Position numbers and translations under genes: made by a program. Below, piece after piece: positions 8,346 through 64,000 of a stretch of DNA of 64,000 nt; position 1 is the first letter of the stretch, and each line of letters opens with the position of its first letter. The notes beneath the pieces are model-generated. The model saw nothing but the letters and a program-made list of their open reading frames with translations, had not been told where the DNA came from and did not search any database. The stretch comes from Megalonaias nervosa (lineage: Eukaryota > Mollusca > Bivalvia > Unionida > Unionidae), in the NCBI GenBank assembly GCA_016617855.1, contig JAECUM010004992.1, positions 28,337 through 92,336 on the forward strand. Reading direction: 5' to 3'.

Positions 8346-8800
8346 CAAAAGGGTTCAATAGAACACAATGTCATACTGTATTAATGCAAGGGGTCCATGG
8401 AACATTATATTACACTGTATTAACATAAGGGCTGAGTAGCATACTAATGGGTGGGGGTGGCAGACAGCTTATAATAATTAAATTGCAGGAAAATTGTTTG
8501 TGGGGCCATCATCGTTACCCCAGGTGCCATTAACCCTTAGTACACCACTGCAAGGGTTCCATGGAACACAATTTCATGCTATATAAACACAAGGGTTCCA
8601 TGGAACACTATTTCATACTGTATTTTCACAAGGATTCCATGGAACACAGTTTCATGCTATATAAAAACAAGGGTTCCATGGAACACTATTTCATACTGTA
8701 TTTTCACAAGGGTTCCATGGAACCATATGTCATGCTGTATTAAGGTCAAGGACTCCATGGAATACAGTTTCATGCTGTATTAACACAATGGTCTGTCCCT
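8346..8800. repeat. Diverged continuation of the 39-bp minisatellite
   Basis: Units of 39 bp with 'ggttccatggaacac' and 'catgctatataaacacaag' occur at 8,346-8,410 and 8,550-8,800. They are separated by about 140 bp of unrelated sequence. This second subfamily alternates two unit types (aaacacaag and tttcacaag ends), indicating a two-unit higher-order repeat. Confidence 0.85.
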
Positions 8801-9019
8801 TATGCAGTCAGCATTATTTCTTGGCTTTATCCCTGGGTCCATGCCTTTGGTTCATAAATTGGACACTTTTGAGATGCCCCACTTGATAACCATACATATG
8901 CTTACTACAGGAAAAAAGCAAAGTCATTTTATGTAGCCAGCATATGCTCCTAGGCCTTACATATATACCTTCTGTACCTCATGCACATTGATTTTTAATT
9001 TGAAAACTTTAAGAACCAC

Positions 9020-29199: not shown

Positions 29200-30540
29200 A
29201 ACAAGGAATTGACAGAATTAGAAAAATATTTTGACAGAGAAAGGATTGATTCAGAGGATCTTTCCTAAAATGCTCATACAAAAAAGGATCCCAAGAGATA
29301 GACACATCAAGAATACCAGAATAATAAAGACACGTTGTGGGATACATTCTGAGACCAAAAGGGATGGAACCTATTATACCATACAGGGAAATAGACATTG
29401 TAGGAGGAACAATGATTGTGAAAGAACCAGAGCCCTTTTTGAGGAAAATAAAAAAGAAAACAGCAAAACTTCACATAGTGGATATACCCATGGAAATTAC
29501 ACTGGAAGCTACTGTAGAGCGATTAGAACAAAAATTTCAAACCAAAGTAACTAGCGTGTGAATAGACACCCACCTGGGATACACAATAAAGAATGGCACA
29601 AGAATACTAGAGATAGAAAGAGAAACAAAAATATTCAGTAAAGAAGGTATTCTTTCTACACTGCTTTTTAGCAAAAATATGTTATAAAGGATGTATCTTC
29701 CACAGGAAATGCCACAAATGTGGGAAAGTGGGGCACATGCCTAAGAGGTGCCAAATACAACAAGAAATAACAAAACAACAACAACAACAGACTCACCACA
29801 TTAGCAAGATAATAGTATTTCCAAAACAGAATAGACAGCAACAACCAATAGAAAAGAAAAAGAGAAGCAAGATCATAGACAGCAATTGACCCAACAACAC
29901 AAGGACAAACAACAACAACAACAACAACCAATAGAAAAAGAAGAGAAGCAAGAACATGGACAGCAGTTGACCCAACAACACAAGGGTAAACAACAACAAC
30001 AAGAAGAACTGAAAGAGAAACAAAAAGAAACACAAGAAAAACCACAGAACCAACAACAAAAGCAAACAAAAACAACAATAAAGGAAATAAGTGAATAACA
30101 GCATCAACAATTAAAAAAGCAACAAGAAGTAATAAAAGATGAAGAAGAACAACAACAAAAAGAAAAAGAAAACCCCCAAGGAAAACTAATGGATAACAGA
30201 GAAAAGAACAGAGAAGAAGGAAAAAGAAAGCCAGAATATCAACAAGTCAAGAGTATAAAAAGGACCAATCAACAACAACATTGGAAGAAAGCAAAAGAAA
30301 AAGAAAATAAGATTTTTACAAGCTAACTTTGGATGAGGAACTAGAGGAAACAAAGTATTACATCGGAGAGATGGAAATTTTATCCAAAATTGTAAAATTG
30401 TGGAAAAAAATAATAAAACAAAATATAACAAGGTCCGTTACAAAAAGGACAAAACCCTATACCATCAATCATACAATCCATACAAGTTCCCAAAATATTG
30501 CAATTAAAAGGTTAATTATACAAAAACCATAAATGTAAAG
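29200..30540 (+). pseudogene. Retroelement gag/ORF1-like remnant with a CCHC zinc knuckle
   Basis: Bases 29,710-29,751 encode CHKCGKVGHMPKRC, a classical CX2CX4HX4C zinc knuckle of retrotransposon gag or LINE ORF1 proteins. Upstream, 29,337-29,561 is open and rich in charged residues (KLHIVDIPMEITLEATVERL), as in the RNA-binding part of such proteins, but it is in another frame and is interrupted. Downstream, 29,760-30,330 is A-rich with CAA runs and encodes Gln/Lys-rich low-complexity sequence, including an internal duplication (QQHKxKQQQQ twice). Frames change several times, so the copy is dead. No reverse transcriptase follows. The long minus-strand frames here (29,668-30,110) are just complements of the A-rich tract. 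Confidence 0.6.
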
Positions 30541-35354: not shown

Positions 35355-35661
35355 AAAATGTATTAGTTATTGGGGATAATAGGATTGCTTTTGAAAAACA
35401 TTACTGCACTATTATATTCAGTAAGAATGAAAATCCAGCTCAGAAAATATCAAAATCCAGTAGCAGCGCAGCTAAGCAATGAAATGCATAATGAGTTAAA
35501 ATTAAATAAGAATTGTATTGGACATATTATTGCACTAACATGCACTTGAACTTTTAATCCTGGTCATCAACAAATGATTTTAAAATAAAAATAACCAAAG
35601 ATTCATTTAAACAGTTAGCCTCATCTAAATGTCAAAGAGCGAAATGATATTCCTTTCTTCC

Positions 35662-36058
35662 AACGCTTGTTAGTGTTGTCATTAGTGACTTGGGGTAAAC
35701 GCTTGTTAGTGTTGGCAGTAGTGACTTGGGGTAAATGCTTGTTAGTGTTGGCTGTAGTGACTTGGGGTAAACGCTTGTTAGTGTTGGCAGTAGTGATTTG
35801 GGGTAAACGTTTGTTAGTGTTGTCAGTAGTGATCTGGGGTAAACGCTTGTTAGTGTTGTCAGCAGTGATTTGGGGTAAATGCTTGTTAGTGTTGTCAGCA
35901 GTGATTTTGGGGTAAACGCTTGTTAGTGTTGTCAGCAGTGATTTGGGGTAAACGCTTGTTAGAGTTGTCAGCAGTGATTTGGGGTAAACGCTTGTTAGTG
36001 TTGTCAGTAGTGATTTGGGGTAAACGCTTGTTAGTGTTGTCAGTAGCGATTTGGGGTG
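35662..36058. repeat. Minisatellite, 36-bp unit, about 11 copies
   Basis: Units are 'cttgttagtgttgtcagtag' + 'tgatttggggtaaacg'. A 12-residue repeat frame stays open for part of it because 36 is divisible by 3; one extra T near 35,908 breaks it. Confidence 0.95.
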
Positions 36059-36230
36059 AAATCTAAATGTAAAATTGTAATTTATTTAATCTGCTCATAT
36101 TTGTAACCTTCAATATTCCTTTATAAAGCAAATAACATAAAAAACATGGGTCTTGTAATACAACTTGATCCAAATCAGAAGTAGACAAGTTTGTGTGCAT
36201 TATTGACATTTAAATAAATTCTGTTCTTTA

Positions 36231-38857: not shown

Positions 38858-40132
38858 AGGGATAGCTCAAGCAAAAGAAGGTATGGTTTTTCGAAGAAAG
38901 TTGCACTGAGTGTCAGCCTTATTACAAGTACATCGGCCTATTTTTCACCCCAAAGTTGGTTCGGACAAAAGCTAAGCAGATACTAGCATCTCTGGCAAAA
39001 AAAGCAACTTCAAAAAGATTTTGAATTATCAAAAATAATTTGCCAGTTTTAGTGTAGAGGATGCCTTTAAAAGTTTTGATTCTTTAATAAAACCAATTGC
39101 TTGCAATGGGTCAGTAATTTGGGGATCTGAATTTAGTAGAGATATTGAAATAGTGCAATACAACTTTTGCAAACAGTATTTAGGTGTTCCTAAAACTATC
39201 AAAAATATAATTTTGTTAGGGAGAGCAGAAGATACCCACTTTGTACCTTATATTTTTCACGATGTACTTAAATACTGGTTGAAGGTTGTGGGAATGCCTT
39301 CAACTCATTACCAAACCAATGTTATTTAATGTGGAAAAGATTAGATGAAACTAACCATGTCTCCTGGGCTACCAAAGTTAAAGACATGTTATTTCGCTTT
39401 GGTTTTGAGTATGTCTGGCTAAATCAAGATGATCGAGACGTAAAACAATTTTTCTCACTATTTTTGCAAAGTATTATGGATTTGACATTCCAAAACTGGC
39501 AAAGTGATGTTAACAATTTATATAAATGAAATGTGTGTATTATAGCATGTATGAAACTAAGTTAAAACTGGAAAAATACCTCTCATGTGGATTATCATAT
39601 TTTCTTAGGAAGTTACTTGCTAAATAGGGGCTTAGTGCATACACTGAAAATAGAGGCAGGTAGACATAGCAGGATTGAGAGTAATGATAGATAATGTGAA
39701 TTATGCCAGAAAAATAATGTTTTTTTGGTAGAAGATGAATTCCATTTTGTTTGTATTTGTCCAGTTTATGACCATTTAAGAAAGAAATACTTTAATGAAA
39801 TTTATTATCTCTATCCATTTGTAGAAAACTTTGTATCCTACATGAGTCATAGTAATATATTAATTATAAGAAATCTTTCTTACAATATAAATTCAGCATT
39901 TGTTTTAGATGATCTTTGATAACTCAAATGAATGGTGACTAATGTACTTAGAGGTAGTAACATCTTTATAGTATTATACACCGATTACAGGAAATTATGT
40001 ATGTATACTCATAATGAACACCATATTTAATTTCTTTACACAATGGTGCACATTTTATTTACTTGTATTTTGTAACATGGGCTGGTGGCCTAAATTACTG
40101 AGTAAAGTATTATTATTATTATTATTATTATT
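38858..40132 (+). mobile_element. 5'-truncated non-LTR retrotransposon (LINE) with target-site duplication
   Basis: The insertion interrupts the minisatellite and is flanked by a 12-bp direct repeat, 'atcagcaccatg' (38,846-38,857 and 40,133-40,144). It encodes broken pieces of the C-terminal end of a LINE ORF2: the segment around 39,050-39,290 (SVEDAFKSFDSLIKPIACNG, VIWGSEFSRDIE), 39,329-39,529, and 39,725-39,919 (VEDEFHFVCICPVYDHLRKK), the usual Cys/His-rich tail. The 3' end is (TTA)n at about 40,109-40,132, as in CR1/L2-type elements. Frameshifts and stops show it is dead. Confidence 0.85.
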
Positions 40133-52300: not shown

Positions 52301-52388
52301 CCATCTAAATATTTTTACAAGCAAGCTCCTGTGTAACTAGGTGCTTTTCATGCCCAGACAAAATGTGAATCATCAAAGTGATGCATTT

Positions 52389-52563
52389 TAGCAGCAGAGA
52401 GGGTGAACCCTACAACTTTGTAGAGACCTTATTTTTGAAAATTAAAGGTTCCTACGAAGGCTGAAAAAAGAAGTTTTTGTCTTAATAATGAAAACTTCTT
52501 TAATTGACCAGATTTTTTCACAATCTGGTCACATACGTATGTCATTCACCCTCTCTGCTGCTA
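52389..52563. promoter_or_regulatory. Compound inverted repeat with nested hairpins at the left edge of the element
   Basis: Two arms of 'TAGCAGCAGAGAGGGTGAA' (52,389-52,407) and its exact complement (52,545-52,563) enclose further structures: CTACA/TGTAG (52,410-52,423), an 11-bp stem AAAGAAGTTTT/AAAACTTCTTT (52,467-52,477 with 52,491-52,501), a 9-bp stem GACCAGATT/AATCTGGTC (52,506-52,514 with 52,522-52,530), and the palindrome CATACGTATG (52,532-52,541). The right arm runs into 'ctataaatta', a TATA-box-like string 30 bp before the first ATG. Possible roles are origin, terminal hairpin, recombination site or promoter; the sequence does not decide. Confidence 0.8.
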
Positions 52564-52595
52564 TAAATTAAACAGCCATATAGATATTATCAATA

Positions 52596-53830
52596 ATGAG
52601 TACTGGAGAACCACACTCAGCTAAATTAGCTCGAGAGCGACTAGAGGCAATTAAAAAATATCTACCCGTTCGTGATTCTGTTAAGCAACAACTACAATCG
52701 CGTCAGGAATCTCAAGTTGAATTTGAAGAGGATACAAAAAAATTATTTAAACCTATCACTGAGACCACTAAAGGTATTCAACCTGTGTTAGAGAAAACCG
52801 CTGAAGCTACAACTGCAACACAGAAGGTTATTGGAGCATTACCAAACCAAATTAAGGAAGCTATGGAGTCTGCCGATAAAACACGTGCTGAAATTCAAGA
52901 TGTTAAAAATATTGTCGAGGATCTCTCTAAACCAGAATTAAAAACTCGGTATTTTAATAAACAAGGTTATGAAGCAATTATAACTGATCCTATTAGAGTT
53001 GCTGCGGCGGGATATCAGATTCGGAGTAATCTTCTAAAGCCAGAATTTTATAACACTCTAGAAGACGAGTGGAATGCTAGGGTATTTCGGGAGCACAAGG
53101 GTATTTCACAAATCAGTAAAAAATATAAAGAAGAATATGATGATTTTGTTAATAAAGTTAATGAAGTGAAAAAACAATTTGGAATACCAGTTACATCATC
53201 AAAAAAGCAGAAATCTCGAAGGCGGAGACAACCATCACCACCACAATTTGAATTACCACCACCACAATTTGAACCATCACCACAACGATCACCAAAACAC
53301 CATCGAAACCAAGTAAAAAAGCATCACGACAAAAAACACCAAAACCATTTGAGCAATCACAAAGTGATTATCCACAACAATCTGAACCACCATCACCACA
53401 ACGATCACAACAATTACAACAAAAGCTACAACGAGAACAAGAACGACAAAAAATAATAGAACAACAACAACAAAAAGAACTAAAATTATTTAAAGAATCA
53501 TTTGGTGATTACTCAGAATTAACACCATCACCACAAATCAGATTACCATCATCACAACAACCAAGAGAAGAGGAAGAAGAATTTCAAGACGCTCCCGGCG
53601 CAACTGGAAGTGGTCTAGGAAGTGGTCTTATTATTTGCCCCAATAACGTCCTTGCTGATGTCGATCGACTAGAAATTCTCATCGGAGGAAAACGAGCTGG
53701 TAATAATTCCCCAGAAATCATTAATGAAGTAGCTGATATTTGTAAACGATTATTTACAGGTGGTATCATGGATATTAATGTATATCGATCTCTCATTAAT
53801 GAAATCGCCGACGATTATTACAGTGATTAG
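52596..53830 (+). pseudogene. Coiled-coil/Gln-Pro-rich structural-type protein, split by a frameshift
   Basis: The first 230 codons (from ATG 52,596) encode a soluble, helical, charged protein: a Glu/Lys/Gln-rich likely coiled coil (residues 1-110), then a segment with YFNKQGYEAI and EFYNTLEDEWNARVF, then a Pro/Arg-rich linker (KKQKSRRRRQPSPPQFELPP). At a CCAAAAC run (53,292-53,298) the sensible frame moves by -1. Without the shift the frame runs through His/Asn-rich nonsense to 53,456. With it, the frame continues Gln-rich, then acidic, then a compact C-terminal domain (LIICPNNVLADVDRLEILIG; stop at 53,828). The lesion could be a one-base deletion or a programmed shift. It is the first gene of the rightward block; the function is unknown, but its position suggests a virion or assembly role. 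Confidence 0.65.
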
Positions 53831-53837
53831 AACAATT

Positions 53838-53852
53838 AGTGATAAAATCACT
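53838..53852. terminator. Hairpin just after the first gene
   Basis: AGTGAT-aaa-ATCACT is a perfect 6-bp stem 8 nt after the TAG stop. It is one of several such palindromes placed behind stop codons in this element. Confidence 0.5.
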
Positions 53853-53916
53853 TAATAATAAAATGATCATACACAATACTCGGGAACCTACCATGGTCAG
53901 GGTAATAAACTCTTGA

Positions 53917-54312
53917 TTACCTGTATACAGAGCAACCTACGGAGATGGACTAGGTGATGTTATTCAGGGTCTGTTTAGAAGGATAGCCCCAAAAGCAATA
54001 CCGATTGCAAAGCAGCTGGGAATGAAAGCTATTGATGTTGTTCGTGAAAAGGGTATAGGCGCTGTTGGTAATCTCGCTAGCAAAGCATTCTCTGCAATTA
54101 AAGATAGACTATCACGATTAATACGCAGACCGACCCGACCTGTGAAATTACCCAGCACTGAAGTGATGCCAGCAAATGTCAGTAAAATAATAAATCAAGC
54201 AGCTAATCAAAAACTAGCGGAGTTAGCTGATATCCCGATGTCGGAAAAGGAAAAAAATATAACCGCTAGTCTGATAGCAGGAAGTGGTCTTCGAGTTAGA
54301 CGAAGACAATAA
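53917..54312 (+). CDS. Small basic protein, possible virion core/minor capsid protein
   Basis: From ATG 54,022 the frame gives 96 residues: amphipathic, Arg/Lys-rich (KDRLSRLIRRPTRPVKL) and ending in GSGLRVRRRQ. The same frame is open and coding-like upstream back to TGA at 53,914 (GDGLGDVIQGLFRRIAPKAI), so the natural start is probably further left and was lost to that stop or to a frameshift near 53,900. It lies 8 bp before the capsid gene. Size, basic charge and location suit a pVI/pX/pVII-like DNA- or membrane-associated capsid component (inference only). Confidence 0.6.
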   Translation, partial: LPVYRATYGDGLGDVIQGLFRRIAPKAIPIAKQLGMKAIDVVREKGIGAVGNLASKAFSAIKDRLSRLIRRPTRPVKLPSTEVMPANVSKIINQAANQKLAELADIPMSEKEKNITASLIAGSGLRVRRRQ

Positions 54313-54320
54313 TAATAAAG

Positions 54321-55718
54321 ATGTTTAAGCGCGTATCTGACCCCGCGTTTGACATGGACGTACCAGTTCTCAAAGATGAGTCTGTGCGCGATTATCAGTA
54401 TTATTCTTATGACGCCCAAATTCCAAATCAGCGTGGAAGAATCGAACTACAGGTTCAGGATACAAGTAGGTATTTCTTACCCGCTGAAGCATTTATTGAA
54501 GTAGAAGGTAAAATTTATAAACATGATGATACCGAATACGATAATAATGATGGTTTTGGTTTTGTTAATAATGGTATAATGGCGTTATTTGATAGCGCTA
54601 CGTACATGATTGACGGAAAAAATATTGAATCAATTCAGAAAGACGTCGACGTTGCTACAACAATACTTGGCCTTGCAAGATATAGCGACGATTGCTCAAG
54701 ATCAGCTGGTCCATCAATGATGTTCTCAAAAGATACTTCTAATTCTTCAAAACACAAACAATATAATATAAGACGACCTAGAAACTTCGCCGGCGCCGCC
54801 GATGTGGATGTAGAAAGTATGATTATTAATGTAGATCCAGAATTTAATTTAGGATTTACAACACGTAAATCAATGTTGAAAGATAGAAGGTTTTCATGTG
54901 CAATTCCACTGTCACACATATTTGGATTCTGCAGAAATGTCAGAAAAGTCATTTTTGGAGCCAAACACACAGTTGTACTTGTGCGAAAAAGCGATGATAA
55001 TGATGCAATGTGGCACGTTGAAGGAGTTGATGCTGCTGCAACTGAGGCACTTCATGGTAAAGTAGTACTAACAAAACTTTCCCTGTGGATGCCAGTGATG
55101 ACTCCAACAATATCCGAAGATCAGTTACTATCTTTTATGAGTCAAGGCGGTAAATCAATGTTGTCATGGTTAACAATGACCACAGATGTTGTTCAGAGTG
55201 CAATTAATGGTTTATTCACATGGCAAATAGCTTCTCAGCAAGGTGTTTCTGCACCAAGACATATATTTATTGCGCTTCAGGATAATACACGTGTAAAAAA
55301 AAAAAAAAAAAGTTTAATGATATTTGACAAACTCGGTGTTTCTGAAGTTTCATTAAGGATAAATGGACATCAAGAACCATCCGAGGATATATTACTGAAT
55401 TTTGAAAATAATCATGTAGCACGTGCATATCATCGATTAATGACATTCATGGGTCGTGATCAAAATATTGATACTGGTTTACAAATATCGCAGCTAGATT
55501 TTACATTGTTGTATCCGATTTATTATTTTTCGTTAGAACATTTAGATTTAACCAGACAATCTGTTGTAGATATTCATTTTCGAGCTCGTGTTGATAGAAA
55601 CATTGTAAATATCCCTAATTACAGAGCAATAGCCGTTATACTCAGCGATAAATCGATGTTACTCGAAGGTGTTGGTGGACGAATGAGAGTTATTGATGCT
55701 CCAGTGGAAAACATGTAA
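54321..55718 (+). CDS. Major capsid-like protein (double jelly-roll type, presumed)
   Basis: An uninterrupted 465-residue protein starts at ATG 54,321 after 'aataataaag' and stops at TAA 55,716. Predicted content is mainly beta-strand without signal peptide or membrane helices. Recognisable stretches include YYSYDAQIPNQRGRIELQVQ near the N-terminus and SEVSLRINGHQ later. Length, central position in the block, and neighbours (protease, penton-like, basic proteins) match the hexon-like capsid proteins of Polintons and adintoviruses. The jelly-roll fold is not demonstrable by eye. A run of 16 A (about 55,293-55,308) encodes five lysines and is a likely slippage site; the frame nevertheless stays open. 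It is the best-preserved gene of the element. Confidence 0.7.
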   Translation: MFKRVSDPAFDMDVPVLKDESVRDYQYYSYDAQIPNQRGRIELQVQDTSRYFLPAEAFIEVEGKIYKHDDTEYDNNDGFGFVNNGIMALFDSATYMIDGKNIESIQKDVDVATTILGLARYSDDCSRSAGPSMMFSKDTSNSSKHKQYNIRRPRNFAGAADVDVESMIINVDPEFNLGFTTRKSMLKDRRFSCAIPLSHIFGFCRNVRKVIFGAKHTVVLVRKSDDNDAMWHVEGVDAAATEALHGKVVLTKLSLWMPVMTPTISEDQLLSFMSQGGKSMLSWLTMTTDVVQSAINGLFTWQIASQQGVSAPRHIFIALQDNTRVKKKKKSLMIFDKLGVSEVSLRINGHQEPSEDILLNFENNHVARAYHRLMTFMGRDQNIDTGLQISQLDFTLLYPIYYFSLEHLDLTRQSVVDIHFRARVDRNIVNIPNYRAIAVILSDKSMLLEGVGGRMRVIDAPVENM

Positions 55719-55741
55719 TTAGATCGTTCATAATAATTATA

Positions 55742-56239
55742 ATGTCATATCATCACGTTAGTGTGAGCCTGACTCCTGGTCAGATTAAAAGGCTGCAATC
55801 AGCATCAAAAAATAACTGTGGAATAAAAATATCGCTAAAACGAGAACAGATGACCGGTGCAAATAAACTGTCGTTGACCGAGCGTCAGTTTAAAAACTTC
55901 AACGACGCTAAAAAATCAAATAAAGGTGTTAAACTTAATCTTTCTGCGGGCGCCATCAAAGATATTGCTAAAACGGGTGGTATATTTCCACTTCTTGCAG
56001 CAATACCAGCATTAATAGCAGCTGCAGCCCCAGCTGTTGCAAAGGCAGCTGCGCTAGGTGCCGTTGGAACAGCTGCTGGAATGGCGTTAAAGAAAGCAAC
56101 CGGACAAGGAATCAAAAAAAAGGGAAGAGGTTTAAGATTACCAGGAACCCCGCCTTCGTGGTACGGAAAAGGCCTAAGATTGCCAGGGACCCCACACTGG
56201 TACGGAAAAGGTCTAAGACTTCCCGGGACAGTTTACTAA
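55742..56239 (+). CDS. Small Ala-rich protein with C-terminal GLRLPGTP repeats
   Basis: 165 residues from ATG 55,742 (context 'aattataATG'). The N-terminal third begins HVSVSLTPGQIKRLQSA and is polar and basic. Residues about 78-112 form a hydrophobic Ala-rich segment (IPALIAAAAPAVAKAAALGA) able to be a membrane or amphipathic helix. The C-terminus has three near-identical repeats of YGKGLRLPGTP. Such small 'Ala-helix plus Gly-Lys-Gly-Leu tail' proteins sit beside capsid genes in related elements and are compared with adenovirus pX/pVI-type core proteins (family knowledge, moderate). It ends 8 bp before the protease start. Confidence 0.65.
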   Translation: MSYHHVSVSLTPGQIKRLQSASKNNCGIKISLKREQMTGANKLSLTERQFKNFNDAKKSNKGVKLNLSAGAIKDIAKTGGIFPLLAAIPALIAAAAPAVAKAAALGAVGTAAGMALKKATGQGIKKKGRGLRLPGTPPSWYGKGLRLPGTPHWYGKGLRLPGTVY

Positions 56240-56247
56240 TAACACCC

Positions 56248-56648
56248 ATGTCCAATTTTGATTTACTTAATGCTGCTAAGCAATTAAAAATAAAAATTTC
56301 AGAGGTGTTTTTATGCGCGATCAATTACCTACCGTTGCAATGCAACATGAAACCGGTATTATTAATCTCGATAAAAATTCTGGCCCAGGCACGCACTGGG
56401 TCGCATATGCAATTGATCCACGTGGAATTATTTATTTCGACTCGTATGGATTAGCACCACCAAAAGAATTTTTAAAGTACGTTACCGGCGATATTCCAAT
56501 CTGGTATTCAACGCTACCGACACAAAAAATAACTGATCCTCCAATATGTGGCCGTGAAACCCTCGCTATGCTTGATGCTGTATCAAAATCAACAACACCG
56601 CCTCATAAAGTCGTGCACGCGTTCACTACGTTACGTCATAGTACTTAA
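56248..56648 (+). pseudogene. Adenain-type cysteine protease (capsid maturation), N-terminal frameshift
   Basis: The catalytic part is open from 56,313: His28 in GPGTHWVAY, Asp43 in IIYFDSYG, a Gln at 71 and Cys79 in PPICG, the order of the adenovirus/Ulp1-like protease triad. This enzyme normally cleaves capsid precursors late in assembly. The natural start is probably ATG 56,248 (MSNFDLLNAAKQLKI), which lies in a different frame; a one-base change in an A-rich run at about 56,288-56,302 separates the two. Past the Cys the sequence (RETLAMLDAVSKS) is less typical, so a second small frame error is possible. The stop is TAA 56,646, followed at once by a palindrome. Confidence 0.75.
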
Positions 56649-56660
56649 ACTGATATCAGT
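56649..56660. terminator. Perfect 12-bp palindrome after the protease stop
   Basis: ACTGATATCAGT begins at the base after the stop codon and lies 7 bp before the next ATG. Confidence 0.5.
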
Positions 56661-56667
56661 AAATATA

Positions 56668-57765
56668 ATGGTAGATATTTACGGAAGATCCTCAGGTAGA
56701 GCTCAGAAGGTCGATTTATCTAAATATGCAACCACTGATCAGCTCAGAAATGAAATCGATGATTTATTAAATATCACGAGTGTGGATCAAAATGAAGTCG
56801 TCGTTTTTCAGGACAAACAAGGACGATTAAAAACGAGTAATATACAACTACCAGATGTTCTTGTACGAATTCCCAACGCGGTTGTTAATAATGTCATTAC
56901 TTTCACTGATCAGGGTAAAATACAGGATTCCAGTAAGTCGGTTAACGATTATGTTAAGAAAACTGGTGATGTATTTACCGGTGATATTATTATGTCAGGA
57001 AGAAAAATTACGCATCTTGGAGATCCAATCGCAGATACAGACGCAGCAACAAAAAAATACGTCGATGATCAAGAATCCAAATACGTGTCAGTGCGCGGTG
57101 GTATAATGCGTGCATTTCTCGACATGAATAGTAATGGTATTAATAATCTCAGAACACCAGAAACAGATTTTGACGCTGCAACGAAGAAATACGTTGACGA
57201 TAAGGAAATTCCAATAACGACTTCATTAACGACAATTAATGATGGAATTGCTGCATTTAGAACTGAATATTTTAATCATGTACAAACATTCCTAAATTTT
57301 CGTAGAAATATAAACAGAAATATTAAAGAATTTTTTGGAACTCCACCTACTGTTATTATTAATCTCGCTGACATTAACGCAAGACTCAACGATATCATTA
57401 GTGGTATTCCTAATATTATTCAAAAAACTAATCTCGTTAAAATTCCTCACAAGCAGATCATTAATATCGTGTACACAGTCGCATCAGGAAAGGCAACATG
57501 GTCGCAGGAAAATAACACTTTTAAACACACTGCAGAGGTTACTGGTGTATACAGATTATCTGTATTTAGTAGTGCAAAATTCAGTATATTTACCACATTT
57601 CCATGGCGTCATTCAACCGATGATTTTTCTGGAATTGTGTCTATAGCGTTAAATAAAGATGTCGAGGAAACGTTTATGCCAATAGCGAATGATAAAAAGT
57701 TAACCGCAGCGACTTATTGGTGGTGTATTGAGTTTGTAGCTGAAACTCCCGAATTAGTTACTTAA
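56668..57765 (+). CDS. Fibre-like protein with phage tail-fibre motifs
   Basis: 365 residues from ATG 56,668 (context 'aaatataATG'); an upstream in-frame ATG at 56,548 overlaps the protease and is less likely. The N-terminus (MVDIYGRSSGRAQKVDLSKY) may attach to the capsid. Residues 100-134 and 145-178 each contain a TG/G-rich strand followed by DAATKKYVDD, the repeat typical of phage tail-fibre and other trimeric receptor-binding shafts. Residues about 190-270 look helical. The rest (from HKQIINIVYTVASGKATWSQ on) is beta-rich and could be a receptor-binding head. Intact. Role inferred: host-cell attachment. Confidence 0.72.
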   Translation: MVDIYGRSSGRAQKVDLSKYATTDQLRNEIDDLLNITSVDQNEVVVFQDKQGRLKTSNIQLPDVLVRIPNAVVNNVITFTDQGKIQDSSKSVNDYVKKTGDVFTGDIIMSGRKITHLGDPIADTDAATKKYVDDQESKYVSVRGGIMRAFLDMNSNGINNLRTPETDFDAATKKYVDDKEIPITTSLTTINDGIAAFRTEYFNHVQTFLNFRRNINRNIKEFFGTPPTVIINLADINARLNDIISGIPNIIQKTNLVKIPHKQIINIVYTVASGKATWSQENNTFKHTAEVTGVYRLSVFSSAKFSIFTTFPWRHSTDDFSGIVSIALNKDVEETFMPIANDKKLTAATYWWCIEFVAETPELVT

Positions 57766-57771
57766 ATAAGT
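57760..57771. terminator. Small hairpin overlapping the fibre stop codon
   Basis: ACTT-AAAT-AAGT (extendable by AT pairs) spans the TAA stop and lies 3 bp before the next ATG. Confidence 0.35.
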
Positions 57772-57773
57772 AT

Positions 57774-58259
57774 AATGAATCAAGAATCATTTATCGACGT
57801 TCAACGTCACAGATACGCTCAAGTATGTGAGTGTCAAACTAAACTAAAAATATCATCGACGATTACACGATAAAGGTAAAAAAATATCGTCGTCGTATGG
57901 TCGTTATTGATATAATGGTATACTCGGTTTCTGCTGTTATTGCTTGAACTGGATTATTACTATCAACAATAACGATGACAGCGCCTGCAGTTGTAACAAT
58001 TATAGTTTCAACGGCAACAACATGCGCAGGTATTTTCAGTATTATCGCTAAGAAAATATCTACGTGTACGAATAATAAACTAAACGAGTACGTGATGAAA
58101 TTACACACAGCAACAGCCGCATACACTAAATTATGCTCGTATATTTCAGCGTATCTCAGTGATGGTAAAATATCCGATGAGGAGTTCGTAACGATAATGA
58201 AAACCTACGACGAAGCATTCATAATCGCTAGTGACAATAACGGAAAGATGGAGAATTAA
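57774..58259 (+). pseudogene. Small broken gene, possible membrane-associated virion protein
   Basis: ATG 57,774 (context 'agtataATG') starts 32 coherent codons (MNQESFIDVQRHRYAQVCEC) that stop at TAA near 57,871. Coding character resumes in another frame from about 57,960, with a hydrophobic segment (TAPAVVTIIVSTATTCAGIF) followed by a polar helix and SDGKISDEEFVTIMKTYDEA, to TAA 58,257. At least two frameshifts therefore lie between 57,870 and 57,975. Intact, it would be about 150 residues with one or two membrane helices. Function unknown; the location between fibre and penton genes suggests a virion component. Confidence 0.55.
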
Positions 58260-58277
58260 ATAATAACGATAATAATA

Positions 58278-59777
58278 ATGTCAGAGTCGCAATTACTTCA
58301 GCAGATCGTAGCTAATACAACGCCGTTAAAAACTACTATGATATCATTAAGTTCAACCAATCCTGAATTTAGCGTTAATTTTCCGACTGCAATTCCAGCG
58401 AGTGAAATTGCATTGGCTCAACTACGAGTTTATCATAGCAGGCCTAATATTAGATCAAAACTGTTTGGTGGACAACAGCCAAATAATTCACTGGTATTTG
58501 CGAATAAAAATAAACCAGATGGAACACCTGATTGGCAAGTTGTTGGAATTTCAACGGGCAGTTATCAAATAGAACAGATTAATGAAGAATTCCAGCGCAG
58601 AATCAAATCTATCACAGGCAAAGAATCTAAAATAGCTATTACTGTTTACGAACCAACACTATCCACGGTAATTGAAATAAATTCCCCTGATTACCTCATA
58701 GATATTTATCAGAGTTCGATCAGATCAGTGTTAGGGTGGCCTGAAGTTGCACCAGCTTATCAGGGACCACCAGAACCACAGCGATCCGACTTCATTACTG
58801 ATAAAAAGGTGTTTATAAATATTCCAGAATATCGAAAAGTAAAAGAGGCTTATCCATGGCAACGATATTTTGATAGTGCTGGAAGAATTCCACATTATAT
58901 AGATAGAATAGGAGACTATTTTACGAAACAAATTGATGGCAAGAAAAAAGGTTCGATAAGAACACTTGATATTGATTTAATAAATTCATATGCTAATACA
59001 ATTAAATCTGAGCATCAGCTTGTATTTAATAATCTACAAAATTTATTTTCAAGTATTAATGTTTTTTACAACGATGATTTAAAAAATCAGATAACTGAAA
59101 CGATACAGCATTTGAATCAAGTTGCTTCAGACCTAGAGTTCATGAATGATGTTTTTGTTAACAGAGAGAAAAGATTAGTACTCCCACCCAGAGTAATATA
59201 TTTTGAAGATTATATAGTTAATGAAGACGATCCAGAACAGCGTGTTCCAAACAATCACTTATTTACAACAGTTTTTCTTAAATATTTCGGAATTACACGA
59301 GAACAACTAGCAACATTTATAATTCCCGGATTTAACTAGTCCGAGTTAAAGAAATCAGTTAATGATCTTATTGATGAACATTTTAAAAGGATGTGTGATT
59401 CATGGAGAAAAATAGCCCCACCACCGGTTATACTAAAACACAATAACAATCCCTTTGGTGCCGGTAGACATATATCACCGGGCATTGTAAACATAACAAC
59501 AACAATTGCAGTCAATCTGGTATGTGATATTATTGAAGGTAGCTATCAGGTAGATCTTTCTAAATCTAGCCAAGCTCAGCAAGGGTACATATTATTCAGT
59601 TTTAGTCCGATTGTCCCTCCAGGCTCGTTAATTGTGTCAGAACCAATTAATCCCGTTTACCTGCGAGTTCATAATCCATTTCTGACAAGAATAAATTTCA
59701 AACTCACTGACCAGGCAGGAAACATTTTGGACACGAGGAACGAATCTCTAAATATAAACCTGTATGTACGCTCATAG
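58278..59777 (+). pseudogene. Penton-like minor capsid protein interrupted by one in-frame TAG
   Basis: ATG 58,278 (context 'aataataATG') opens 353 codons to TAG at 59,337-59,339. The same frame continues without another stop to 59,777, so the original gene had about 499 codons. The N-terminal part (SLSSTNPEFSVNFPTAIPAS, then an ISTGSYQIEQINEEFQ stretch) and the C-terminal beta-rich part (GYILFSFSPIVPPGSLIVSE, ESLNINLYVRS) look like the two ends of penton-type minor capsid proteins in adinto/Polinton-like elements. The middle is charged and helical (residues about 190-300). The TAG may be a disabling mutation or, less likely, a read-through site. A separate product could restart at ATG 59,391. 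Confidence 0.65.
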
Positions 59778-59782
59778 AATGT

Positions 59783-59798
59783 CTGATTATTTAATCAG
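59783..59798. terminator. Hairpin after the penton-like gene
   Basis: CTGATT-ATTT-AATCAG, a perfect 6-bp stem 5 nt after the TAG stop, at the end of the morphogenesis block. Confidence 0.55.
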
Positions 59799-59799
59799 G

Positions 59800-60139
59800 G
59801 GCATAATCTGATGAGTAAATACATGAATAATAATCAATTTTCTATGATTAAAGTAATTGTATATATAATAAAGCGAGATAACTCGGCTATCTCTCTGCAG
59901 TAAATTGAACGATTATTTCCCTTACTACGTTACCTGTACAAACCCAGTTGTATATACGTGTATAGCGTATATTAGTCCGTCTGTCTGTTACCTTAACGAA
60001 CTATAACTTTATGCGTGCAAAATTATTTTATGAATTTTGAAAAACTGAAGTACAATTCTACATTCTATTAGTAATACAAGTTCTGTGAGACAGCGTAAAT
60101 ATTATATATATACTTAAATTTAACTATATTATTGATAAG
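59800..60139. other. AT-rich non-coding spacer with hairpins
   Basis: Two stems stand out: GAGATA-actcggc-TATCTC (59,875-59,893) and ATATACG-tgtatag-CGTATAT (59,952-59,972). No coding frame. This is the left part of the noncoding hub between the capsid and replication blocks. Confidence 0.55.
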
Positions 60140-60222
60140 AGAACGATGGCCGAAATGGTAAGACGGTTTGACGTAGATCGAAGCTCTACAGACTCTCGCG
60201 TGTTCGAGTCTCAAAAAATGCT
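60140..60222 (+). ncRNA. tRNA-like sequence (degenerate)
   Basis: 'TGGCCGAAATGGTAAGACG' (60,147-60,165) closely resembles the A box/D-arm of Leu or Ser tRNAs. 'TGTTCGAGTC' (60,201-60,210) resembles a B box. A stem TTTGA/TCGAA lies where the anticodon arm should be, but its loop has six rather than seven bases. The D, T and acceptor stems do not pair well. It could be a decayed tRNA, a SINE head, or an internal pol III promoter for a noncoding RNA covering the structured region downstream. Confidence 0.35.
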
Positions 60223-60264
60223 AAAGATATTATCTTGCATTTGGCGACTGATGCTTATTTAATT

Positions 60265-60413
60265 GGGGGAACCCGGAGAATTTCCTCGATATCCACAACA
60301 GACAAAATACACTCTCCTATCATACACCCTTGAGGGGTGTACGTTTTACACTCCCGGGGTTTTGTATGGGGGGAGAGTGTACAAAATCTGTTGGACGTAG
60401 ACAAGATTCCCCC
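60265..60413. ncRNA. Nested 149-nt stem structure
   Basis: Four nested pairings: GGGGGAA/TTCCCCC (60,265-60,271 with 60,407-60,413), CAACAGA/TCTGTTG (60,296-60,302 with 60,387-60,393), TACACTCTCC/GGAGAGTGTA (60,308-60,317 with 60,372-60,381), and TACACCC/GGGTGTA (60,323-60,329 with 60,335-60,341). A second 'acactccc' (60,349-60,356) can compete for the same partner. It may act as DNA (cruciform, origin) or as a structured RNA. Confidence 0.6.
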
Positions 60414-60420
60414 GTCATCA

Positions 60421-60591
60421 CCATTTGTATATATTCATGTTCATACAATCATTAGGATAAGTTTATGTTTGTGCAGTCCAAAATCATAAACCATCTGTAT
60501 ATATTTCATAACCATATAATCATTAGGATAAGTTTATGTTTGTGCAGTCCAAAATCATAAACCATCTGTATATATTTCATAAAACCATATA
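60421..60591. repeat. 70-bp direct repeats, 2.4 copies
   Basis: Units start at 60,421, 60,491 and 60,562; copies 1 and 2 share an identical 'atcattaggataagtttatg' and 'tttgtgcagtccaaaatcat'. Direct repeats in the only large noncoding gap suggest regulatory or origin iterons. Confidence 0.9.
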
Positions 60592-60604
60592 TCACAAACA
60601 AAAC

Positions 60605-60641
60605 AGCTCCCTGACAAAACAAAAAAAAAGTCATGGGAGCT
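60605..60641. promoter_or_regulatory. Hairpin upstream of the 145-aa gene
   Basis: AGCTCCC-TGAC and GTCA-t-GGGAGCT pair over 11 bp with one bulge, loop of 14 A-rich bases. It ends 25 bp before ATG 60,667; a T-rich and TATA-rich tract (60,647-60,666) follows. Confidence 0.65.
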
Positions 60642-60666
60642 AATATTTTTTTATATTATATATATA

Positions 60667-61104
60667 ATGAACCATGAAAACATCAATGATATTATCTGTG
60701 CTATTAAAACACTAAAACATAACGGAATAAAAATATCTGATAATCTCGACCCTCAGAAAATCATGTGCGATTTTGAATTACTGCAACAGAGAAAATTTGA
60801 TAATAAATATACACTATCTTCAAACTACAGATTTATAAAATTAATTTATCAATCCATGCTTGAATCACTGGCTATGGTAAACGACAATCAGGTAAAGCTA
60901 TTTGCACATCTTGCACGTTCGATCGAAAATATTAAATCCGAACTGTCTCACGAGTACGAAAGAAAAAAGATTGTGGATAATCGTGTAATGCAATTAAGAA
61001 AGATTATGCTATCTGATTCTGTCAATGCTGAGAGCGGTGAAGATGAACCCCTGACAGAGTCAGTGACTGTAATTATGGCTAAACAAAACCCTTGGGAAAA
61101 TTAA
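60667..61104 (+). CDS. Uncharacterised 145-aa protein
   Basis: Starts at ATG 60,667 immediately after 'tatatatata'. The product is helical and charged, with a central region rich in Leu, Asn and Lys (FIKLIYQSMLESLAMVNDNQ) likely to be a coiled coil, and an acidic Ser/Glu-rich C-terminus (NAESGEDEPLTESV). No signal peptide, zinc site or catalytic motif is visible. It is intact. As the first gene to the right of the noncoding hub, it could be an early regulatory or replication accessory protein; that is only positional inference. Confidence 0.65.
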   Translation: MNHENINDIICAIKTLKHNGIKISDNLDPQKIMCDFELLQQRKFDNKYTLSSNYRFIKLIYQSMLESLAMVNDNQVKLFAHLARSIENIKSELSHEYERKKIVDNRVMQLRKIMLSDSVNAESGEDEPLTESVTVIMAKQNPWEN

Positions 61105-61107
61105 AGT

Positions 61108-61128
61108 AGGTGTCTCTCATGGATACCT
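61108..61128. terminator. Hairpin after the 145-aa gene
   Basis: AGGTGTC-tctcatg-GATACCT, 7 bp with one G-U pair, beginning 4 nt after TAA. Leftward transcription from the HNH gene ends in the same gap, so it could serve both strands. Confidence 0.5.
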
Positions 61129-61180
61129 CATATTATATCCCAACCATGTTTCAGTAGGTAATCATTAAAAATACGGTAGA

Positions 61181-61684
61181 CTAAACATATTGAAAATTTA
61201 TTTTTTGTGTAAATCTTTTGGAAAAGGAAGATTTTTGTATATTTTCTGCGACAAATTGTACCGATCGTGGTACTATGTCAAAATATTTGGCAGCAGAATT
61301 AATTGATTCAAAATTAATTTCTTCTCCAGTCTCTGTATTCACTGATTTAATAGCTCTCTTTCTGTATAATTTACACCTTCCTGTGTTTCCGGATTTACAA
61401 TTTTGACTCTGTGTAGTAACTCGTAAATTAGAAATCGAATTATCAAGCCTATTGCCGTTGATGTGATCCACCACATACCCATCCTTGATCATTCCAAAAT
61501 AACACTCGTAGGTAAATATATGAGATAAATATCCTTTTTTCTTGCCATTAGCAGTAAATCTAAGATAACCAGTATTATTAAGACTACCTACTGGTTTTTT
61601 CAATCTACAGTTTCTAATCACACCATCTCGGGATGATTCATAATTAGTAAGGATTGGATGTGACACAAACTCATTTTGTTCCAT
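61181..61684 (-). CDS. HNH endonuclease (homing-type, NUMOD-like)
   Basis: 167 residues on the minus strand, start ATG at 61,684, stop TAG at 61,181. The HNH core is clear: LSH at 53-55, VVDHINGNRLDNSISNLR at 71-88, with the metal-binding His74 and Asn86 in place. The N-terminal part (YESSRDGVIRNCRLKKPVGS) resembles a NUMOD4-like domain. The C-terminal part (INSAAKYFDIVPRSVQFVAE) is a NUMOD1-like helix-turn-helix that guides DNA binding. Such enzymes are free-standing homing nucleases in phages and large DNA viruses. It is intact, opposite in strand to its neighbours, and only 12 bp from the next leftward gene, suggesting a mobile two-gene cassette or simply a leftward operon. Confidence 0.88.
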   Translation of the reverse strand: MEQNEFVSHPILTNYESSRDGVIRNCRLKKPVGSLNNTGYLRFTANGKKKGYLSHIFTYECYFGMIKDGYVVDHINGNRLDNSISNLRVTTQSQNCKSGNTGRCKLYRKRAIKSVNTETGEEINFESINSAAKYFDIVPRSVQFVAENIQKSSFSKRFTQKINFQYV

Positions 61685-61696
61685 TTATATATAATA

Positions 61697-62014
61697 CTAT
61701 TTGTTTACATCATTATTTTTTTTTGAAAATCTAGCCAAATAATCTTCTTCGGTTTTTATAGGAGAGTCAGCGTTATTTTTTTTATCGTAATATCGTTTTA
61801 ACTCTCTGTATTTTTTACCACCGCATTGCGCGCACAGTTGAGTTCTTCCTCGCACTCCAGCACTACACACAATACACGCTTTTGGTCCTGTACTTCCATT
61901 TCTAACACATTGCATATGATAACTACAATATTCATTCACGCATGATTTATTACAAGTAGAAGTATATCCAATTTTGAGCCAAGCACATTTGTTTTGTGTT
62001 TCAATCATATACAA
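61697..62014 (-). CDS. Small Cys-rich, probably zinc-binding protein
   Basis: 105 residues on the minus strand, from ATG 62,014. Cysteines at 10, 21, 25, 30, 36, 47, 50, 61 and 64, with a His at 33, form several C-X2/4-C pairs (CNKSCVNEYCSYHMQC, CIVC, CAQC), suited to two or more zinc sites. The C-terminus is Lys-rich. Likely a nucleic-acid-binding or recombination-directing partner, unknown family. It shares a 43-bp divergent promoter gap with the rightward polymerase reading frame. Confidence 0.7.
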   Translation of the reverse strand: MYMIETQNKCAWLKIGYTSTCNKSCVNEYCSYHMQCVRNGSTGPKACIVCSAGVRGRTQLCAQCGGKKYRELKRYYDKKNNADSPIKTEEDYLARFSKKNNDVNK

Positions 62015-62057
62015 AAGATTAATGTTCAGTTAAATATATACTTGCCCTAATTATAAT
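62015..62057. promoter_or_regulatory. Divergent promoter gap
   Basis: A 43-bp AT-rich spacer separates the starts of a leftward and a rightward gene. It contains 'ttaaatatata' and, just before ATG 62,058, 'aattataat'. Confidence 0.5.
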
Positions 62058-62633
62058 ATGGAGGAATTATCCGTTATTGAACCTTCCCCTGCTAGATTTG
62101 ACCTTGACAGACTATCAGAATATAAACTCAGTACTTCGATGCAGGATCTGACATTAATGGATGAGGATGTAACTGAACGTATTCGTGAAGCAAAAAAGGA
62201 ATTTCGTGACGATGGTGCAGTTCATGCATGGTCAACATTCAGAGTTGGAAATGTTACTAATATGATGAATGATAAACGAGGAAAAGTAATTATTAATCAC
62301 CTTGATAATCAAAAATATTTTATTTTAATAAAATTTATTGTAAATACAGAAGAATATATTTGGATTATTCGTGATAAGCGTGATCCAGTCCGTGTGCAGT
62401 CCGGGGGTAATATTGTTCTTTTAAGTAATAAATCTAAGCCCGGAATACTTACTGGCATTGATAAACCCTACTATATACAGAGTTATCCAGCAACTGCAGT
62501 TGTATATGGAATATTTCCGCTAAATAATAAACCTAATGTTGCGGATCTGAAACCGATGAAAATATCAAGAATAAACTGCGTAGCTGAACGAGTTACAGAA
62601 CATTTACAAATGCGATACGTGGTAATGGCTTAA
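62058..62633 (+). CDS. N-terminal segment of the replication protein/polymerase reading unit
   Basis: 191 residues from ATG 62,058. It starts with a short acidic tail (MEELSVIEPSPARFDLDRLS), then a mixed alpha/beta region with YFILIKFIVNTEEYIWIIRD. It ends MKISRINCVAERVTEHLQMR, after which the frame stops at 62,631. Coding character continues immediately in the next frame (62,621 onwards), so I read this as the N-terminus of one large protein cut by a frameshift near 62,610-62,625 rather than a separate gene. The function of this domain is unknown to me; it precedes a family B polymerase. Confidence 0.5.
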   Translation: MEELSVIEPSPARFDLDRLSEYKLSTSMQDLTLMDEDVTERIREAKKEFRDDGAVHAWSTFRVGNVTNMMNDKRGKVIINHLDNQKYFILIKFIVNTEEYIWIIRDKRDPVRVQSGGNIVLLSNKSKPGILTGIDKPYYIQSYPATAVVYGIFPLNNKPNVADLKPMKISRINCVAERVTEHLQMRYVVMA

Positions 62634-64000
62634 CTGATTTAAGACGTAAAAAAATAAACACATGGGCAGAGTCCGTTAAAGATGCTGGTGCATCTATTAA
62701 GGATGTTGCTGAACTAGAAAAGTTATTAAGATTTCCAATAACAGTAAAAACACTAACCGGAGAGATATTATACGAACCAAAATATATAAAAATGGAAACC
62801 CTATAACAATCGTTGATCATAATGCACATGCATGGACTAATGCTGTAACGATATTTCCACGAGATAGAAAAGTTAAGTTTTATAACGGTGACATCTTTGA
62901 TTTTATCAGAAATATAAGTAAAAGCGACCCTGTGTCTGTTTGGTTATTTCAGAGTTCGGAATATAATCATTACGATCAGTTTGTACGGCCTAACGGTGAT
63001 ATTTATCGTACAGAATTTCTTCATGAAGAAATGGAACATCTTGCATTGAAATATACCTCTGATGATGTCATAGTTGGACAATTACTGAATAACTGCTTTA
63101 CCGTACCATCGGTTGCTGCCCATTTCGCTCAGGAGAAAAATTCATGGAAACCAACACGATCAGAATTCCTTGAAGATGTCAAGAAAAGCTGTTTAGAATA
63201 TGGTCACGGTGGATTATGGAACACCAAATACAACCATAGTGATGTTATCTCAGTTGATATGGCTGCATGTTATCCTGGGAGTTTTCTTGGATATGGAGTA
63301 TGTTCTAAATACTTTAAGAGATTCGGACATCCTACACATGACATGACCAGGGCTGCGATAAACGGACATTTACCAGATTTTGACTTAACCGGATTTGCTC
63401 ATGTAGAATTATTCGAATTTGCAGAAAATCTCCATCCGATTACTTATGCTTGGTTTGGAAGACATTTCTCAGAGCGATGTTGGGTTCCGATAGTACTATT
63501 GCGGTATATGCTTGATGCTGGATTTTTAATATCGTTGAGAGTAAATGAAGCGATTATATCGTATAATTCACAGAAACAAGTTTGGTTACCAGAACCGAAC
63601 AGATTTAATATCGATGATACCAGAAAAGAATTCCCTGATATTGATGAAGATCATATTATTAAAATAAATAAATGCAGGAATGAATACGATGAGAAATTTA
63701 CAAAAGATCTCGGTAGAAAGATAATCGGTAAATTTACTCAAGGTGGTTCATACGATTATAAATGAGCGTGTACAAGATTGATTATGGACGATGCTGAACT
63801 AGATTTTATAATCGCTGATACAACTGAAAAAAAATACGTTTATAAACCGATGTAATGCTTATTTATCAGATGGAACAAAACTAGGTACCATTGTGAGCTA
63901 CCTTGATGGCGACTCACCACAATTTACTCATTTAAGATCTTCGATGTTAGCTTATGTTTCGATAAACCTACTATCGATGATAAATAAATCTCCTCATCAC
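62621..64000 (+). pseudogene. Family B DNA polymerase (protein-primed type), broken and running off the window
   Basis: Coding character passes through several frames: 62,621-62,803, then about 62,740-63,762, then (after an in-frame TGA at 63,763) to about 63,840, then a third frame from 63,845 to the end. The largest piece contains VISVDMAACYPGSF (about 63,245-63,290), fitting polymerase motif A with its metal-binding Asp, and KIIGKFTQGG (about 63,720), placed like motif B. The last piece (SMLAYVSINLLSMI) reads like the palm helix that precedes motif C, which would lie beyond 64,000. This enzyme would copy the element's genome. With at least three frameshifts and one stop this copy cannot make it. 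Confidence 0.72.

Follow-up and report, generated by a model that had tools for sequence, protein, structure and literature searches.

A probable high-copy virus-like transposon with a polymerase-helicase replicase in the freshwater mussel Megalonaias nervosa

Gene content at the end of the window

The window analysed here comprises 64,000 nucleotides of Megalonaias nervosa contig JAECUM010004992.1, and its end holds roughly the left three quarters of a capsid-encoding mobile element of ~15.5 kb, running from 52,390 to the contig end at 64,000. A first-pass annotation of this DNA had placed an endogenous double-jelly-roll virus-like element within animal sequence at this location, and our analysis supports that identification; its left edge, given as 52,387, was measured at 52,390.

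The major capsid protein (MCP) gene (54321..55718, forward strand) matches the DJR-like Pfam family PF21738 over the cut-off (E 4.6e-18), and the AF2 model of its product (pLDDT 85.1) has a predicted double jelly-roll (DJR) fold that matches DJR capsids in the PDB, bearing out the MCP-like gene proposed earlier. By fold comparison only, an Adintovirus sp. capsid protein in BFVD also matches it (E 1.1e-15). A tblastn search of phage records with the MCP returned no relative, and PDB sequence searches with the MCP, polymerase and penton-like proteins gave nothing useful. The penton-like gene (58278..59777, forward strand) is interrupted in frame by a stop codon (59,337-59,339), which leaves two ORFs (58278-59339 and 59391-59777). 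It belongs to a conserved family without a noteworthy Pfam or PDB hit; among its 17 homologues, P0081 (496 aa) reads through the stop and covers both parts, and this full-length relative substantiates the gene, whose product is a putative penton by general resemblance. The fibre-like gene (56548..57765, forward strand), likewise upheld, carries two DAATKKYVD repeats; its PHROG matches are to families of tail and head-decoration proteins, the strongest at E 1.3e-10. For the adenain-type protease the support is weak: a fragment of a putative adenain/Ulp1-type cysteine protease (56313..56648, forward strand), whose gene appears to start in another frame, matches Peptidase_C5 below the cut-off (E 0.039), and so does the corresponding enzyme of the canonical Polinton in this genome (E 0.0038).

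Several smaller genes accompany this block. ORF1 (52596..53827, forward strand), a putative minor virion or regulatory protein with no Pfam family over the cut-off, is read from two ORFs in different frames (52596-53456 and 53273-53827) and is probably frameshifted. A small basic protein (54022..54312, forward strand), 96% identical in a sister copy of the element (L050), is possibly a core or minor capsid protein. The 165-aa basic protein with a hydrophobic centre (55742..56239, forward strand; 98% identical in L050) is possibly protein VI-like, judging by general resemblance. Another small protein, hydrophobic over a stretch near its N-terminus (57975..58259, forward strand), is identical to its L050 counterpart at 39 of 39 aligned residues, up to the end of the L050 piece. 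Further right lie a 145-aa ORF (60667..61104, forward strand; 97% identical in another sister copy, L048), a free-standing HNH homing-endonuclease-like gene (61181..61684, reverse strand; HNH_3 E 5.2e-14) and a small zinc-ribbon protein gene (61697..62014, reverse strand; DZR_2 E 0.007, below the cut-off) that recurs in L048, L051 and, in part, L045. The HNH nuclease had been recognised in the first pass, and L048 holds a 67% identical relative in the same gene order. For a tRNA-like stretch near 60,140-60,210, Rfam and ARAGORN returned nothing trustworthy.

The replicase gene (62058..64000, forward strand) comprises a vOTU-like region and a family B polymerase (PolB) palm. Motif A at 63,256 substantiates the proposed family B polymerase; the reading is broken over several frames, and the contig ends before motif C and the helicase. 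With this and the stop in the penton-like gene, not every gene of the cassette is intact. A decayed Polinton polymerase claimed next door was not found within 1-52,500: the PolB motif scan yielded one motif A, the element's own, while hits to motifs B and C were no better than chance would give, and a Pfam scan found no polymerase in 95 of the 110 stop-to-stop ORFs of at least 68 aa, the other 15 being low-complexity or repeat ORFs. Other parts of the assembly contain canonical Polinton polymerases in abundance.

Termini, copy number and completeness of the element

The left terminus (52390..52566, forward strand) is a terminal inverted repeat of ~160-180 bp, which forms the common start of the copies and recurs inverted at the right end of other copies. 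It contains 18-nt inverted arms of its own (52390-52407 and 52545-52562), which had first suggested a MITE, a small nested repeat with TA flanks. This candidate was rejected because the outer edge is exact in 26 of 26 copies with unrelated flanks, and because the matches continue as far as the beginning of ORF1 and the right end is formed by the same repeat in inverted orientation.

Across the assembly, the exact 31-nt terminus occurs 681 times in forward and 680 times in reverse orientation (control: 0 and 0). By our own count among the first 100 places listed, at least 17 inward-facing terminus pairs lie 14.9-16.8 kb apart; one pair in the same set is separated by just 6.6 kb, and some termini may be end fragments or non-autonomous derivatives. 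The MCP recurs at 87-96% identity in 90 other scored places and the replicase at 95-98% in 139. Left-end identity averages 98.2% over 325 pairs, a mean biased upward because the scored set consists of the best 40 of 2,383 candidates. A 5-bp target duplication flanks 3 of the 12 copies having both ends and is absent from the other 9; the right end was not seen within the fetched piece for three copies of the duplication check, nor for C255 and C356. Together, copy number, common exact ends and long open frames point to recent activity.

Sister copies supply the part of the element that is missing from the window. The first pass saw no integrase or packaging ATPase there, which reflects the end of the contig at 64,000; both are present in these copies. 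The packaging ATPase matches Pox_A32 over the cut-off (E 3.5e-12), and its P-loop motif was found in five of the six replicase-bearing pieces. The integrase matches rve under the Pfam cut-off (E 2.5e-6; 28.1 of 32.6 bits), and its three acidic motifs occur in all six right-hand pieces with the replicase. A phospholipase A2 protein was also identified (PLA2 E 5.7e-12). At sequence level, the element is bounded by inverted termini at both ends and encodes a capsid block with MCP, penton-like and fibre-like proteins, a replicase joining polymerase and helicase, an A32-type packaging ATPase, a phospholipase A2 protein and, on the opposite strand, an rve-type integrase.

The capsid half and the replicase half were examined in separate pieces, and they could in principle be two elements adjoining by chance. 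A gap of ~0.9 kb without ORFs of at least 90 aa separates the penton-like gene from the next ORF, and elements are nested in one another in this genome (L013, L048). Against such a coincidence, six of eight right-hand pieces, which cover the DNA 10-20 kb inside a left terminus, contain the replicase (of the other two, L046 shows nothing and L050 the left half of another copy), the termini pair at the spacing given above, and L050 carries the capsid genes in the window's gene order. We consider a chance juxtaposition very improbable. Still less credible, to the point of being nearly negligible, is the view that the assembly took in an exogenous virus or a contaminant: the contig does end inside the element, but copies are found on many contigs, some longer than 200 kb, with unrelated flanking sequence, and Wnt genes are present in the assembly as exon-sized matches. 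The locus is best read, with high confidence, as one copy of an endogenous virus present in high copy number, a self-synthesising virus-like transposon of ~15.5 kb; this copy is decayed and truncated by the end of the contig.

The replicase and its relationship to known lineages

The replicase palm has no Pfam or PDB match and was recognised by its motifs. In the six right-hand pieces with the replicase, all motifs found, those of the neighbouring genes included, occur in a single order; motif A was not found in L045, nor the ATPase motif in L048. NCVAERV followed by HNAHAW, the candidate vOTU Cys and His, is present in all six pieces and in the window, with no OTU profile match. At motif level, motif C lacks its first Asp, reading ATDS in all six pieces (the window copy ends before it); a recognisable motif C was found in 17 of 50 replicase homologues, and the first Asp is absent from all 17 (16 ATDS, 1 TTDS). 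C-terminal to the palm lies an SF1 helicase (AAA_19 E 9e-10 and AAA_30 E 1.5e-7 in L052, both over the cut-off), and helicase motifs I, II, III, V and VI follow motif C in six of six pieces; L048 contains two replicases, of which one has these motifs and the other is truncated where the piece ends. A putative C-terminal HNH domain scores below the cut-off (E 0.047), with its TVDRINS motif in all six pieces. An AlphaFold model of a polymerase homologue was unusable (pLDDT 38).

Could the element be a canonical Polinton/Maverick (Polintoviricetes) or an adintovirus (Eupolintoviridae) whose polymerase looks odd through decay? The common plan speaks for this: like Polintons, the element has a DJR MCP, a penton-like protein, a probable adenain-type protease with a weak match, an A32-type ATPase, an rve integrase and inverted termini within ~15.5 kb. 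The MCP of the element and that of the genome's canonical Polinton are homologous at profile level (hhalign probability 97.8), but the relation is remote (BLASTP E 0.078). Yet PF21738 matches the MCP of the element and not the canonical one, and PF03175 matches the canonical pPolB at 1.8e-44 whereas the replicase pieces give no match; hhalign of the replicase against the same-genome pPolB returned a probability of 0.3 with a shallow profile (Neff 1.7). Within the reach of that profile, this agrees with the earlier view that the polymerase is unlike the common Polinton type. Decay is further countered by the sister copies, which encode this same polymerase-helicase and in some cases keep it in a long open frame: by our own count, 13 of 140 scored places have the palm match in a frame of 1,146-1,215 aa uninterrupted by stops. 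Adintoviruses share animal hosts, hexon, penton and integrase with the element, but, in the available portion of the source, are defined by an OTU-PolB and by hexons mutually recognisable by BLASTP (PMC11071296); by description, the polymerase of the element looks a different type. We regard assignment to either group as unlikely.

The supposition that the polymerase is wholly undescribed is not supported either, since its motif order fits the Tlr1-like pPolB-S1H replicase as described in the available part of PMC11071308. As far as the accessible text of the sources goes (PMC4642659, PMC11071308, PMC12721341), Tlr1 of Tetrahymena and Tlr1-type polinton-like viruses (PLVs) share with the element an rve integrase, a DNA-packaging ATPase, two capsid proteins and a replicase in which the palm, its motif C degenerate, is fused to an SF1 helicase and followed by a homing-endonuclease domain at the C-terminus. 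The likeness is one of published description; the element resides in an animal and its replicase tail is HNH-like, whereas that of Tlr1 is GIY-YIG, and the element has an additional phage-like fibre and a PLA2 protein. OmPLV of Oxyrrhis marina also fuses an SF1 helicase to pPolB in a Polinton-like virus, but its helicase is N-terminal, its exonuclease is kept and it uses a tyrosine recombinase, according to the accessible part of PMC12721341; in every piece of our element with both sets, helicase motifs follow palm motifs. Endogenous PLVs of stony corals are, by the description available in part (PMC12220804), likewise resident in an animal genome. Within the portions available of the open-licence literature surveyed, no Tlr1-type replicase was found in a mollusc or other animal genome. 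Scans of IMG/VR with the polymerase gave no relatives, and searches of IMG/VR and prokaryote contigs for relatives of the element yielded pattern stretches, none confirmed.

Predicted life cycle and significance

From gene content alone, a virion and infection steps can be predicted. The integrase would insert the linear DNA, generating the 5-bp target duplication, and the replicase would start at the inverted termini via protein priming and unwind DNA with its own SF1 helicase, substituting for the canonical Polinton polymerase; the vOTU-like region may cleave the replicase. MCP, penton and fibre would assemble into an icosahedral virion that the cysteine protease matures and the ATPase packs with DNA, with PLA2 helping endosome escape. 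Spread through the germ line would proceed by insertion and perhaps by infection from animal to animal.

We tentatively suggest, at somewhat less than even odds, that the element represents a separate animal-resident polinton-like branch, which has kept all of the Polinton equipment for virion formation and integration but replicates by a Tlr1-type vOTU-palm-SF1 helicase-HNH enzyme, has reached hundreds of copies through recent amplification and may be forming virions in freshwater mussels even now, its replicase being common to bivalves and arbuscular mycorrhizal fungi via horizontal exchange. Tlr1-type replicases are known from transpovirons and from polinton-like viruses of ciliates and algae, and the polymerase-helicase has so far come mainly from viruses of microbes. 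An animal element with such a replicase and a Polinton-type kit would join both groups in a single genome that also houses a canonical Polinton in high copy number, so that the exchange proposed between replication modules and capsid modules becomes testable within one host; given the signs of recent activity, virion formation may be approachable in living animals.

Termini, length and copy number

The window occupies bases 28,337-92,336 of contig C4180 in the assembly searched here (2.19 Gb, 54,709 contigs), and the contig itself stops at 92,336, the window end. A query spanning the left end of the element (52,340-52,600) returned at least 41 matches, the best 40 of 2,383 candidates being scored; with the window's own match and a short secondary one set aside, all begin between query bases 25 and 51, mostly at 48-51, and reach the query end. 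The element starts with AGCAGCAGAGAGGGTGAA or a one-base variant of it in all 26 copies compared (the window and 25 others), and is preceded by unrelated sequence in every one; its 31-nt left end is free of mismatches in 22 of these copies and carries one mismatch in the other four. The exact 31-nt terminus occurs 681 times in forward and 680 times in reverse orientation in the assembly, whereas the reversed control occurs in neither orientation. Several hundred copies are represented by these termini, fragments and non-autonomous derivatives possibly among them. A hand count over the first 100 places listed gave 17 inward-facing terminus pairs spaced 14.9-16.8 kb apart, which puts the length of the element at about 15.5 kb. 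Two other pairs among these places are 6.6 kb and 23.6 kb apart; the latter, on contig C78, probably reflects nested copies, since the fetched piece L048 shows a second replicase there.

When the left terminus of a copy is compared with its own right terminus, the two agree at 83-100% in 12 copies, counted over the first 89 to 173 bp; a second arm pair on contig C624 reaches only 53%. An exact 5-bp target duplication flanks three of the 12 copies with both ends and is absent from nine, which may have been recombined, nested or misassembled. The right end was not seen in the fetched pieces of three further copies, nor in those of C255 and C356. The element has also inserted into copies of itself, as observed in L013 (around 1501) and L048 (around 4493-4643). 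In L049 (C624) and L067 (C643) the same 10 bases follow the right end and the left flanks differ, as if recombination had joined them or one repeat held both.

Gene content of the window and sister copies

Downstream of its MCP gene, the window copy carries a basic protein gene and then the protease, fibre-like and penton-like genes. The fibre-like and HNH nuclease genes proposed in the first-pass annotation were borne out: the fibre-like protein, with DAATKKYVD repeats, matches PHROG families of tail and head-decoration proteins (best E 1.3e-10), and the HNH gene, on the minus strand together with a zinc-ribbon ORF, matches HNH_3 in Pfam (E 5.2e-14). For the adenain-type protease also proposed there, a Pfam match is present, but it is weak and below the cut-off (E 0.039). 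The penton-like gene, which we so name by resemblance, is interrupted by a stop at 59,337-59,339 that its homologue P0081 (496 aa) reads through, and the replicase begins at 62,058 and is spread over several frames; the window copy is therefore decayed in at least these two genes. Overlapping frames point to probable frameshifts in ORF1 and the protease too. Between penton and replicase, a tRNA-like stretch noted by eye (60,144-60,210), which neither ARAGORN nor Rfam called, could be the head of a SINE or what is left of a viral tRNA, and a 71-bp unit stands in two tandem copies, 94% alike, at 60,434-60,575, between capsid block and replicase.

The right half was read from 10-kb right-hand pieces of eight copies. 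Six contain the replicase (L045, L047, L048 with two, L049, L051 and L052); the L050 piece holds the left half of another element copy, and nothing of the element was found in L046. A six-frame motif scan, in which frames may be broken, recovered motifs I, II, III, V and VI of an SF1 helicase after the palm in all six, together with a tail that is HNH-like, and did not find palm motif A in L045. The helicase in L052 exceeds the Pfam cut-off for AAA_19 (E 9e-10) and AAA_30 (E 1.5e-7). Next, on the opposite strand, come an integrase of the rve type (28.1 bits versus a cut-off of 32.6, best E 2.5e-6), with its three acidic motifs found in all six pieces, and a protein whose DUF5679 (E 9e-12) and phospholipase A2 (E 5.7e-12) matches are over cut-off. 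The sense strand then carries a packaging ATPase whose A32 match exceeds the cut-off (E 3.5e-12); its P-loop was found in five of the six pieces and not in L048, and the right terminus comes after it. The apparent lack of ATPase and integrase thus does not hold for the sister copies, in which the suggested extension past the window end recovered both genes and the terminus.

Replicase identity and the canonical Polinton

The palm and N-terminal pieces of the replicase gave no Pfam match of note. Among its 50 homologues, motif C is recognisable in 17, all lacking the first Asp (16 ATDS, one TTDS), and Walker A in four, one of them degenerate; ATDS also appears in all six replicase-bearing pieces. 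Upstream of the palm, NCVAERV and HNAHAW, present in six of six pieces and without profile support, agree with the Cys and His residues of a putative vOTU protease. Named sources among the homologues are the fungi Diversispora, Racocetra and Rhizophagus (seven rows) and 'Candidatus Thiodiazotropha' bins (P0046, P0049, P0057, P0059 and P0064). The latter rows are probably host contamination: we presume that DNA of the lucinid clam hosts was binned with the symbiont.

According to PMC11071308, 'Tlr1-like helicases' occur in polinton-like viruses and transpovirons, with a middle (TP-like) domain, vOTU, palm, SF1 helicase and C-terminal GIY-YIG or HNH in that order, together with a motif C whose first Asp is altered. 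Replicase order and motif C fit this description, and the gene content appears to match the Tlr1 type. Conversely, OmPLV, as presented in PMC12721341, has the helicase first and keeps an exonuclease, the opposite order to that of the element.

The same genome houses a high-copy canonical Polinton family (L073 915-1553, L001-L008, L072 and L074). Scoring of the best 75 among 12,983 candidates gave at least 150 PF03175 matches in the assembly, and many of these lie in open frames 1,366-1,367 aa long; the polymerase frame of one canonical copy scores 1.8e-44. A piece of another copy encodes A32, rve with a chromodomain and a BIR-domain protein; the latter (inhibitor-of-apoptosis) is seen between polymerase and ATPase. 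A third encodes a 439-aa protein, with no Pfam match over cut-off, that we assign as the canonical MCP because it lies next to the protease, resembles such proteins and shows a profile match to the element MCP. On sequence comparison, the element MCP is related to it at the profile level only (BLASTP E 0.078; hhalign probability 97.8, E 6.7e-13). The replicase profile found no match to the canonical polymerase (hhalign probability 0.3, with a shallow profile of Neff 1.7), in agreement with the initial impression that the two differ.

The decayed Polinton polymerase thought to lie next door was not found in window 1-52,500 by PolB motif scan or by Pfam scan of 95 of the 110 ORFs of at least 68 aa, 15 low-complexity or repeat ORFs being dropped. 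The sole motif A was the element's own, motifs B and C gave three chance-like matches, and the Pfam scan returned a single member each for zf-CHCC, zf-CCHC and a 7TM family. By eye, apparent decayed LINE fragments and one ORF showing a zinc-knuckle pattern lie at 39,039-39,916 and 29,617-29,886. Long tandem repeats at 7,794-8,883 and 35,619-36,085 yield spurious ORFs.

Spread, host and proposed mechanism

The MCP recurs at 87-96% identity in at least 90 further places (best 91 of 41,050 candidates scored) and the replicase at 95-98% in at least 139 (best 140 of 18,031). By hand count, 69 of the 91 scored MCP frames have no inner stop and 13 of the 140 replicase places lie in a stop-free frame of 1,146-1,215 aa, so apparently intact genes exist in the genome. 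The spread of the element looks recent, in the sense of past spread rather than present-day activity. Judging from Wnt genes, the host is an animal, since the assembly contains 27 exon-sized Wnt matches (none in 14 control genomes, which may all be prokaryotes). Capsid and penton matches make a unionid mussel the likely host.

Gene content, ends, copy number and, in some copies, 5-bp duplications form the observed basis of the mechanism we propose. The palm-helicase enzyme would replicate DNA from the inverted ends by protein priming, with the putative vOTU making the cleavage, and the rve integrase would carry out insertion. MCP, penton and fibre would build a capsid matured by the protease, into which the A32 ATPase would package DNA, and phospholipase A2 may help entry.

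Polinton-like viruses are already known in animals, being endogenous in stony corals according to PMC12220804, and Bellas et al. (PMC10120064) report that, among metazoan MCPs, only those of cnidarians fell outside the main Maverick-Polinton cluster. No animal with a Tlr1-type replicase was found described in the literature searched, part of it covered as listings and passages.
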